From Methylocaldum szegediense (lineage in GTDB: Bacteria; Pseudomonadota; Gammaproteobacteria; Methylococcales; Methylococcaceae): a DNA stretch of 64,000 bases. Below the pieces are notes generated by a model that saw only the letters and a list, made by a program, of their open reading frames with translations, was not told the DNA's origin and searched no databases. Made by a program: the position numbers and the translations under genes. Of this stretch, positions 1,594-7,800 are shown in pieces (within the stretch, counting starts at the first letter, position 1; every line of letters begins with the position of its first letter). The stretch covers positions 4,064,001 through 4,128,000 of the forward strand of contig NZ_OX458333.1 in the NCBI RefSeq assembly GCF_949769195.1, in the 5' to 3' direction.

Positions 1594-3689
1594 GTGATTA
1601 CACTACCTACTCCAAATCTATCACACCCAAAGTACCGTCCGGACATAGATGGCTTGAGGGCCATAGCAGTTTTATCTGTTGTTACCTTTCATGCATTTCC
1701 AACTTGGATTAAAGGTGGATTCATCGGCGTTGATGTGTTCTTTGTAATTTCAGGCTTTCTGATTTCGACAATTATCTTCGAGAGCTTGGATAAGGGAACG
1801 TTCAGCTTTGCAGAATTCTACGTAAGGCGTATTCGAAGGATTTTTCCGGCGCTCATTTTAGTTTTGTCTGCCTGCTTAGCATTCGGCTGGATGGTATTAA
1901 TCGCAGACGAGCTAAACCAACTCGGCAAGCACATCGTCGGTGGCGCTTTATTTGCTTCCAATTTTGTTTTATGGAGTGAGGCTGGTTATTTTGATAACTC
2001 TGCAGAGACTAAACCACTTTTACATCTTTGGAGCTTAGGAATCGAAGAGCAGTTTTATATTTTATGGCCTTTCGTCCTTTGGTTTTTTTGGAAAAGAAAA
2101 TTCAATCTAATTACGTTAACGTTTTTGATTGCTGCTTGTTCTTTTTATCTAAATTTACGAGGAGTTAAAAAGGACCCTGTTGCCACTTTTTATTTGCCAC
2201 AAAACAGGTTTTGGGAGTTATTATGTGGGAGTATATTGGCGTGGGTTGTGCTTTATAAAAAAATGCATGTAAAAGCATTAGACTAAAACTTGATGGCTGG
2301 CTTGCCAAAGTCATCTATAGAGATAACGTAGATACGGATGGCAAGACTATTTCGAATGTTACTTCCTTTGTCGGATGCTTGCTTCTTGCATATGGTATTT
2401 GGAAAATAAATAAGGATATTAGGTTTCCTGGTAAATGGGCAGTTTTTCCAGTAATGGGTACTGTCTTGGTAATTTTGGCTGGCCCTCAAGCTTGGATTAA
2501 TAAGAAGATATTATCTAAAAAGATTGCTGTTTGGTTTGGTTTAATTAGCTTTCCTCTATATCTTTGGCATTGGCCGTTGCTTTCCTTTGCGAGAATAATT
2601 GAAAACGAGCCTCCGGGTCATGAGATTTGCACGGCGGTGATTATTATTTCAATTCTTCTTGCCTGGCTTACGGTAAGGTTTTTAGAAAAGCCATTCAGGT
2701 TTTCAAGTCAGAGGAGTGTTCTTAAGCTAAACATCCTTGTTGGGTTAATGATTGGGACCGGTTTCTTAGGATTTTTTGTAAGCAAAGGAGATTTTGAAAA
2801 CTCTCATGGATATGAAAAATTATTAATTAAACGTAAAGGATTTGAGCATGCGTTGGGCTCATCCCTTTCTTGGTATAAGGGCAAGGAAGACTGGTTGTTT
2901 TTAGGTAATGCTCATGCTAATACTGTTGCGAAACTTAAACTCGCTATCACACCCAGCTATTCTGAATTAAGAAAAAGTAAAGAAATTTTTTCGAAAATTT
3001 CCAGGGCGGCATCTGATAGGGGAATAAAAGTTGCTTTGATTATAGGTCCAAATAAGTCGAGCATCTACCCAGAGTATTTGCCTAGTAAAATTATCCCTTC
3101 GTCCAAAAGATACATTGATTTTTTTATAGATGAACTCAAAGGAATTCCTAATTTAATTGTTTACGATCCAACTAATGATTTGCTTAATGCAAAAGAATCT
3201 GAGGGTATTCTTTATTATAAGACTGATACCCATTGGAATAAGAAGGGAGCATTCCTAGCATACTCCGGCCTCTCTAAGTTGCTTGGAACTCCAATTCCCG
3301 AAGTCCATTTTAAATTGGGGCAAGCGCGCCCTGGCGATCTTATAGGCATATCTAAGTTGAAGAATTTTCCTTTATGCAAAGAAGACAATTGGGATATTTG
3401 GTTTAAAGAGAATTCTGCCTGGCAGGAGGAAAAGATTCCCGACGAGCAAATCACTTCCTTTGGTGCGGCCAGCGTTTCCGTTAATAAAAACCCGCTATCA
3501 GAGAAATATGTTTGGGTTTTAGGAGATTCATTTACTGTAGCATTAAAGCCATACTTTAATTCCGCTTTCAAAGAAGTGCGATATATTGGTCACTGGGCGC
3601 AAAAGATTAACGATTTACCCACTGAACTGGCTAAAGCAAAGAGAAAGCCTGACCTGGTAGTGATTGTTAGAGTTGAGCGTTCTTTCTAA
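1594..3689 (+). pseudogene. AT3 O-acyltransferase with AlgJ/AlgX-like C-terminal domain, split by a frameshift
   Basis: The first part (GTG at 1594 to stop at 2286) is the N-terminal half of an acyltransferase-3 (OafA/YrhL) membrane protein. It has 'PDIDGLRAIAVLSVVTFHA' with the conserved His, 'GVDVFFVISGFLIS', and 'YVRRIRRIFPAL'. The second part (same strand, next frame to 3689) continues the membrane helices ('PLYLWHWPLL') and ends in a periplasmic domain with 'DTHWNKKGA' and 'GDSFT', as in AlgJ/AlgX SGNH-like domains. The two frames join without loss if one extra A is read in the seven-A run at 2257-2263. Such proteins acetylate surface polysaccharides. The region is distinctly AT-rich compared with its surroundings, suggesting transfer. 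It could be a pseudogene, a slippage-dependent gene, a phase variant or a sequence error. Confidence 0.78.
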
Positions 3690-3868: not shown

Positions 3869-4933
3869 TGTCGCGTCTCGTGTGATTATTTACCGAGAAG
3901 GAGTTATGCTTGGTTCGAAGCCCGGAGCCTTCTCCAGGAGATATTCGGTTCGTCCAAGTGAGGTTTCTCTCCATGCAGATTCGTCTTCATAAGAACGCCC
4001 GTACCACCCCGGCCGTTCGGCAGGCCATTCAAGCGTCCACGTTGAGCGAGCGCGCCTTGGCCCAAAAGCATGGCATTAGCCGAACGACCGTCCGCAAGTG
4101 GAAACACCGCTCCTCGGTCGAAGATGCCTCACACCGGCCCCACACCCTCAGAACCACGCTCACGCCCGCCCAGGAAGCCATCGTGGTCTACCTCCGCCAA
4201 GCTCTGCTCCTCCCCTTGGATGATCTCCTGGCCGTGACCCGGGAATTTCTCAATCCCGCCGTGTCCCGTTCCGGGCTAGACCGCTGCCTGCGCCGCCACG
4301 GGGTGGCGTCCCTCAAGACCCTGCTTCCGCCTACAGAGAAGGCGAAGGTCAAACCCTTCAAGGCCTATGAGCCCGGCTTCCTTCACCTGGATGTTAAGTA
4401 CTTGCCCGCCATCGACGGCGAACCCCGCCGATACCTGTTCGTCGCCATCGACCGCGCCACCCGCTGGGTCTATGTCGCCCTCAAGCCCAACCGCTCCGCC
4501 TTAAGCGCAAAGGACTTCCTCAAAGCGGTGATTCAGGCCGCGCCTTTCCGCATCCAGAAATGCCTGACCGACAACGGCTCGGAGTTTACCGACCGTTTCC
4601 TGACCCGAACTCGGCAGCCCTCGGGGACGCATGAGTTTGACCGCCTCTGTACTGAACAAGGCATCGAACATCGCCTGATTCCGCCGGGACGGCCCCAAAC
4701 GAATGGCCTGGTGGAACGATTCAACGGCCGCATCGAGGAGGTGTTGCAAACCCATCACTTCGATTCAACCGCCGATCTGGACACCACCTTGCACCGCTAT
4801 GTCGAGCTGTACAATCATCACATTCCCCAAAAGGCCTTAGGCCATCTCACCCCGATCCAGGCTCTCAAAAACTGGCAACTGTCCCATCCTCATCTTTTTC
4901 GAAAGAAGGTTTACGATCTTGCGGGACTTGACA
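3869..4933 (+). mobile_element. IS481-family insertion sequence
   Basis: The element is defined by imperfect terminal inverted repeats: TGTCGCGTCTCGTGTGAT at 3869-3886 matches the reverse complement of 4916-4933 at 12 of 18 positions, and similarity continues a little further inward. It carries one full-length transposase gene. No target duplication is obvious (left flank ctaca, right flank attaag), so a flanking rearrangement or degenerate duplication is possible. The ends are inferred from these repeats rather than from a reference element. Confidence 0.68.
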
Positions 4934-4938
4934 ATTAA
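3973..4938 (+). CDS. IS481-family transposase
   Basis: DDE transposase of 321 residues. The N-terminus holds a helix-turn-helix ('LAQKHGISRTTVRKWKHR', about residues 31-48) for end binding, followed by the RNase-H-like catalytic core. The three acidic residues are visible: Asp in 'FLHLDVKYL', Asp in 'CLTDNGSEF', and Glu in 'NGLVERFNG'. I chose the ATG at 3973 because 'MQIRLHKNARTTP' is where family homology begins; the upstream in-frame extension from 3910 looks like leader sequence. The last codon is only partly inside the element and the TAA at 4936-4938 lies just outside the proposed right inverted repeat, so the stop comes from the insertion site. The gene looks intact. Confidence 0.9.
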   Translation: MQIRLHKNARTTPAVRQAIQASTLSERALAQKHGISRTTVRKWKHRSSVEDASHRPHTLRTTLTPAQEAIVVYLRQALLLPLDDLLAVTREFLNPAVSRSGLDRCLRRHGVASLKTLLPPTEKAKVKPFKAYEPGFLHLDVKYLPAIDGEPRRYLFVAIDRATRWVYVALKPNRSALSAKDFLKAVIQAAPFRIQKCLTDNGSEFTDRFLTRTRQPSGTHEFDRLCTEQGIEHRLIPPGRPQTNGLVERFNGRIEEVLQTHHFDSTADLDTTLHRYVELYNHHIPQKALGHLTPIQALKNWQLSHPHLFRKKVYDLAGLDN

Positions 4939-5968: not shown

Positions 5969-6175
5969 TGGACACCAAAGTTTCAAACTATGAGACGGAT
6001 GAGTTGCCTGGAAACGTTACCGAAAGGAACCTATACCCAAGAATTCCGCGAGCGGGCGGTGAAACTGGTGTTGGAAAAGAAGGCTTGTCGTGGGGGACGC
6101 CGGCCAACGGCTCTCGCTATCGCCTAAGACCCTGCAGAACGGAGTGATGGCCGCGCGGAAAGTCCTGCGGAAGGC

Positions 6176-6185
6176 CATCGGGCCA
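6176..6185 (+). repeat. Left target-site duplication of the ISAs1 element
   Basis: The ten bases catcgggcca lie immediately before the left inverted repeat and recur exactly at 7213-7222. Removing 6186-7222 restores the OrfA reading frame of the host IS3 remnant. Confidence 0.95.
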
Positions 6186-7212
6186 CAGGGCTGTTCAATG
6201 CTTGATGCCTTTATAACTCAAGACGCGCTCCAGCTCCGTCCCGTTATCGTAAAGGGCGGTGTGAATATTGGATTGGCCGTTCTGACTTAGGAGGTTCAGC
6301 GCGAGATGGCGAAGATGAGCGAATATACCGGGGTTCTTGCGGATGCGGCTCGCATCCTCGCCAAGTGCGGTGTCCAGCATGTAGTAGAGCCGGTTTTCGA
6401 TTTCCCAGTGACCGCGAATAACCTCGGCCAACGTGGCCGTCGAGGCGTCGGGGTGACGAGATAGTAAGCGATGGGTGCCTGACGCGGCGCAAAACAGCGG
6501 TGACGAGGAGTGAATTCCGCCACGTGATGGGGGACCTCGACCACGGCTTTGAAGTGGTCGTGCCAGGGTTCTGGACCGGTCCCTTCGGGCAGAGGGCAGA
6601 CCCATGCCGTGCGTTGTTCGATGCGATTACGCCGGCCCAGGTCTACCGTGTAGGTTTGCTCGGCGTGAGGCTGCGTCTGACAAACCGCCTGTACGGCTGC
6701 GTATAGCTTGGGATGATTGCCTTTGAGTTGGACCAACAGATCGCTTCCGGTGGCGATCGCGGCCTCAACTGTTTTTTGAAGATGGAGGACGTCGAGCGTG
6801 TACAGCCGCCCGGCTAGTCCCAGGGTTTCGATGAGCCGCTGGGCGGCCTGGATGTCATGGTCCTTGCCGGCATCCTCGATCAGCACCTGGCCCAGCACGA
6901 TCCGCTCTCCAACGGCGAAAGCGCTCACCACCTGGGCGGCCCGGCGGTCCTCGAAGCGATTTAGGCTGCCGCGCAAGGTCTTGCCATCGCGCCTGATGGG
7001 TGTGGATGAGCTGATGAATCCGGCCGTACGAGGTCGCTCCGCTCATTACCGCCAGGATACTAAACAGCCGCAGGTGAGGGAGATCGTACCGCTTCCATTG
7101 CGCACAACGGTGATCCGCAATCGGCAGCAGGCTTTGTTTTACGGGGACAACGGTTCACTCCCTCGGCAAATCAAAACCGTTTACCCGAATTCATAAGAAT
7201 TGAACAGCCCTG
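6186..7212 (-). mobile_element. ISAs1-family insertion sequence (internally deleted)
   Basis: Both ends carry a perfect 14-bp inverted repeat: cagggctgttcaat at 6186-6199 and its complement at 7199-7212. A perfect 10-bp direct repeat flanks the element, a length typical of this family. The internal transposase gene is on the minus strand and is broken. The element is inserted in orfA of an IS3-family remnant. At 1027 bp it is shorter than a usual ISAs1 element, in agreement with an internal deletion near 6988. Confidence 0.93.
6195..7046 (-). pseudogene. ISAs1-family transposase, deleted and frameshifted
   Basis: The N-terminal start 'MSGATSYGRIHQLIHTHQA' runs from 7046 and breaks near 6988, where the sequence jumps to the catalytic-domain motif 'DGKTLRGSLNRFEDRRA' in another frame; the intervening part of the family is absent. 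The middle reads 'TLDVLHLQKTVEAAIATGS' and 'LLVQLKGNHPKLYAA'. A second frame change near 6480 leads into 'GHWEIENRLYYMLDTALGED' and 'LRHLALNLLSQ', the conserved ISAs1 C-terminus, ending at 6195. With at least one deletion and a frameshift the protein is almost certainly inactive. Confidence 0.88.
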
Positions 7213-7222
7213 CATCGGGCCA
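7213..7222 (+). repeat. Right target-site duplication of the ISAs1 element
   Basis: Exact copy (catcgggcca) of 6176-6185, directly after the right inverted repeat. It marks the junction where the IS3 OrfA reading resumes. Confidence 0.95.
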
Positions 7223-7569
7223 AGCCAGCCGCCTCTAACCGAGCTGGAACTGGGGATGGTTCGATTGAAGCGAGAGCTCGCCGGGGCAAGCTGGAGCGCG
7301 ATGTGTCAAAAAGCGGCGGCGTACCCTTCGACTTCGTTCAAGACAGGCTTTGCGAAGGAAGAGCGAAGCGAAGGATGCCGCTGCAACGTATGCGTTAATG
7401 GAAACGTTGCGACTTGAGGATCCGGTACGGCTGATGTGCCGGGTGTTCGATGTGTCCCAGAGTGGGTTCTATGCCTGGCTCAAACGGCCTCTGTCACGGC
7501 TGCCACCGACGAGACCCGGTTGGCGGTGGAGATCCAGGCTGCCCACCAGCGGACCCGGGAAACCTATAA

Positions 7570-7800
7570 GGAAAGCAACTCATTACGCCTGACACGTTCC
7601 AGCAGGTCAATGCCGCTAGCGAACAAGATTTCGTACAGCTGTTGTACTGACCGAAGGGTCTGCCCGAGAGTATTCACCACACGTCCGCGTGAGCGCAGGT
7701 GCAACGCATAACTTGTTGGCTTAAAGAGTCCTAAACCAGATTGGGATTCACAAATAAGAGGCATACGTTCACCGGCCTCTATCTCCACCATAACAACCAA
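7570..7800 (-). pseudogene. N-terminal stub of a tyrosine recombinase/integrase
   Basis: Starting at 7800, the frame reads 'VEIEAGERMPLICESQSGL', then 'LRSRGRVVNTLGQTLRSVQ' and 'LYEILFASGIDLLERVR', after which it stops. This resembles the SAM-like N-terminal domain of integrases found on mobile islands ('LRSRGxAxNTL...LxxLY..L...GID'). The catalytic domain with the Arg-His-Arg-Tyr residues is missing. The break coincides with the end of the IS3 remnant, so the two were probably joined by one deletion. I take it as a remnant of an older island integrase; the identification rests on pattern similarity only. Confidence 0.5.

Follow-up and report, generated by a model that had tools for sequence, protein, structure and literature searches.

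The window analysed here, 64,000 nucleotides of the Methylocaldum szegediense chromosome (positions 4,064,001 to 4,128,000 of contig NZ_OX458333.1), contains an acyltransferase gene that is split between two reading frames at a run of seven adenines. This raises the question of whether the gene is switched, leaky, miscalled or recently broken. Frame 1 is open from window position 1555, with a GTG at 1594 that aligns with the starts of relatives. From this GTG, the 5' part of the gene (1594-2286, plus strand) encodes 230 aa, the first 223 of which are homologous, and ends at the TAA at 2284-2286. The -1 frame opens directly after an in-frame TAA (2256-2258) and extends to 3689, forming a 3' part of 476 codons (2259-3689, plus strand) that encodes the remainder of the acyltransferase and an AlgX-like SGNH domain. 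Alignment with relatives showed that the reading frame is lost at the A7 run (2257-2263, plus strand), where the sequence is TAT AAA AAA ATG. Homology in frame 1 stops at LYKK (2262) and starts in the -1 frame at N-A (NACK...), continuing as AAT GCA. Because the alignment leaves frame 1 after LYKK and picks up with NA in the -1 frame, the shift falls within the A run itself; relatives carry YKKNAF (L028) and YKKNSF (L030) across this site. Joining the aligned parts gives 223 + 475 = 698 residues. Frames and alignment therefore agree with the original prediction, made from the sequence alone, which had placed the frame change at the A7 with the stop following it and expected a continuous acyltransferase of about 700 residues once the halves were joined.

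The Acyl_transf_3 profile (326 positions) is covered by two pieces, positions 3-182 by the 5' part (E 3.5e-23) and positions 194-325 by the 3' part. The latter piece alone scores below the Acyl_transf_3 cut-off, and the ALGX match of the 3' part is above cut-off (E 1.8e-15). Both Pfam domains, Acyl_transf_3 and then ALGX, are found in order across a gene without a single continuous reading frame. Its kind of acyltransferase is one that acts on surface polysaccharides, as the original prediction had supposed. The SGNH part weakly matches PatB1 of Bacillus cereus (E 3e-8), and HAFP, TDTHW and GDSF are all present in the split gene; we take these to be catalytic-type motifs, which would fit active enzymes of these families. 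The 3' part ends in VERSF, a C-terminus common to nearly all relatives. Judged from its sequence, the split gene is by descent a broken member of the Acyl_transf_3 + ALGX O-acyltransferases, and its product is predicted to be an O-acyltransferase that probably acetylates surface sugars. Its domain order, motifs and C-terminus are those of other Acyl_transf_3 proteins with an AlgX/PatB-like SGNH domain, whereas the two-frame split occurs in the M. szegediense genome only. No other ALGX-domain gene was found in this genome, and the three Acyl_transf_3 genes elsewhere in it are all in open frames. Two separate functional proteins are unlikely: the membrane domain is interrupted by the split, and the 3' part is unlikely to be translated on its own, since its first candidate start is a TTG at 2379 and neither ATG nor GTG occurs close to its 5' end. 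Promoter and terminator scans gave signals no better than those in shuffled sequences. At L040:2342-3670, a sequence 62% identical to the SGNH part was also observed, in a locus without a matching acyltransferase first half.

All 19 full-length close relatives, which are 47-61% identical over the 3' part, consist of one continuous ORF of ~680-756 codons. Across the family, 102 of 105 loci are continuous at the break site and the three exceptions are not splits at that site, so that no off-state relative (0/105) was found at the A run. Two of the 19 relatives carry A8 at this position and the remainder carry interrupted AAG/AAA codons. All residues invariant among the relatives (157/157) are retained in the split gene, and the alignment revealed neither a second inactivating change nor a query-specific gap. 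The two halves are thus full and collinear, as had been proposed, and the further inactivating mutations that the original prediction named as evidence against a switch were not found. Runs of at least seven A or T are touched by 5.4% of the 31-bp windows of the gene, and the fall of the frame shift in such a run is mildly non-random, as a slippage hotspot would give. The gene contains three such runs, and shuffling its synonymous codons gives an expectation of 2.7; neither the length nor the number of runs is unusual for its codon content.

The gene also looks horizontally acquired, as a GC-poor import. Its GC content is 38.7%, that of the M. szegediense genome is 57% (PMC10868220), and the foreign origin is suggested because a relative of the gene is absent from three congeneric genomes. 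No close DNA relative was found in the plasmid collection.

We consider it fairly probable that slippage in the A run recently deleted one base from this imported two-domain O-acyltransferase gene, which would now be inactive. The ancestral run would have been one base longer, and the slip would have taken place at replication. Ribosomes reaching the site would end at codon 231, leaving a presumably inactive product that lacks the SGNH domain altogether and roughly half of the membrane domain, and the gene would in effect be a young pseudogene in this strain. A disrupted frame in the presence of intact relatives is what characterises a pseudogene; the additional decay expected of an old but not of a young one is absent. 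With no second inactivating change and no invariant position lost, the event must be young, and an older pseudogene was rejected. Isolated frameshifted genes usually reflect an indel mutation or a sequencing error according to the authors of GeneTack (PMC3711429). Their singletons likewise show one frame change in one genome with continuous, intact relatives elsewhere; the M. szegediense gene differs in being free of any further decay, as a very young event would be. The original prediction had left a switch, decay and sequencing error side by side; a recent inactivating slip is the best fit among them, with switching as a minority reading.

The undamaged state of the gene, with 157/157 invariant residues, implies that the break is recent, miscalled, reversible or partly suppressed, and the last three cases need to be weighed against a recent slip. 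A base-calling or assembly error, the true gene being continuous, is improbable on balance. Such errors typically show up as a lone homopolymer indel in a gene that is perfect elsewhere, the absence of further damage is equally expected of an error and of a very recent break, and Nanopore reads were used in the assembly (PMC10868220). However, the Norfolk genome (chromosome of 4,869,648 and plasmid of 25,724) is a hybrid assembly in which Illumina reads were also used and whose coverage is 173x (PMC10868220); the sequence that we analysed comprises 4,895,372 bases in two contigs, the first of 4,869,648, and its completeness score is 100%. In a 464 kb sample (the window and 400 kb of other stretches) we counted 83 runs of at least seven, some of them eight or nine long; 47 lay in open frames that had 200 codons or more. 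A frame change at a run of six or more was found in just one other place, an IS630 transposase. Base quality looks good by a reference-free frameshift scan that was tuned to host codon usage and is insensitive to breaks in AT-rich imports, having missed the acyltransferase itself. With a hybrid genome and other tracts intact, a sequencing error is less likely than a recent slip. Phase variation, in which the tract would slip between A7 (off) and A8 (on) during replication and so switch surface O-acylation, we regard as similarly doubtful. The full lack of other damage to the gene is its strongest point, and surface-glycan O-acetyltransferases can phase-vary through repeats, as in meningococcal pglI, where a phase-variation change was seen in 41% of paired isolates (PMC5445459). 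Both genes carry a repeat tract in the coding region of a surface-glycan O-acetyltransferase. The pglI frame, however, changes between paired isolates (PMC5445459), whereas the tract here is a short A7 in one strain, neither kept in relatives (A8 in 2/19) nor longer than chance, and the number of runs is explained by codon content. What stood of the proposed switch is a frame lost at an A run in an otherwise whole gene; the switching itself gained no positive support and is a minority reading.

Leaky expression is likewise unlikely, although it has a parallel in the same genome. RNA polymerase might add an A, or ribosomes might slip by -1, at the A7 to yield some full-length enzyme, as in insect symbionts. 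In five near-identical IS630-type copies (L118:10000-11060, minus strand, genome C1:590000-591060; copies L136-L140) an A7 of the same phase divides the transposase between two frames. The IS630 and acyltransferase sites share NNN AAA AAA A, a -1 shift, and KK followed by N (Asn codon). The IS630 split is probably genuine programmed -1 recoding of a known kind (PMC5009743), because a 78% identical copy has kept the A7. Rescue of homopolymer frameshifts in otherwise intact genes has also been described for Blochmannia and Buchnera (PMC3017870). That work stressed poly-A tracts of at least nine in extremely AT-rich genomes, in contrast to the A7 here in a genome of 57% GC, and in many bacteria selection against slippage-prone runs becomes apparent once they reach about nine nucleotides (PMC1088944). 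In the acyltransferase family neither the frame change nor the slippery site is conserved and full-length relatives are continuous, the opposite of what a programmed frameshift would show. From the sequence, a -1 shift would leave the P-site codon poorly paired (AAA to UAA), and a stimulatory RNA structure was rejected as the fold around the A7 is unremarkable (z -1.47).

On present evidence the locus is simply a further young frameshifted import, of interest chiefly for getting the annotation right. There is a small chance that a free-living thermophilic methanotroph controls the O-acylation of its surface polysaccharide through a poly-A tract, by A7/A8 DNA slippage or by IS630-like -1 recoding. 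Were either true, envelope modification in a methane-oxidising bacterium would be governed by a contingency locus, whereas such loci have mostly been studied in host-associated bacteria.

The surroundings of the gene are rich in mobile elements, which counts in favour of a recently broken import. Directly downstream lies an IS481-family insertion sequence (3869-4938, plus strand) with an intact transposase, whose ORF spans 3910-4938 and was matched as 3976-4938. The genome has about 40 copies that are 99% identical, which points to a recent burst. Close to the acyltransferase, 5970-7600 (no strand assigned) holds broken transposase remnants from several families, nested in one another, including an IS3 orfA-like fragment, an H-repeat-like transposase (6296-6976, minus strand) and more fragments, all called by reading the sequence. 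Four apparent frame changes were also seen within 1.3 kb of strongly coding sequence at L128:3606-4933 (minus strand), possibly a decayed long gene.
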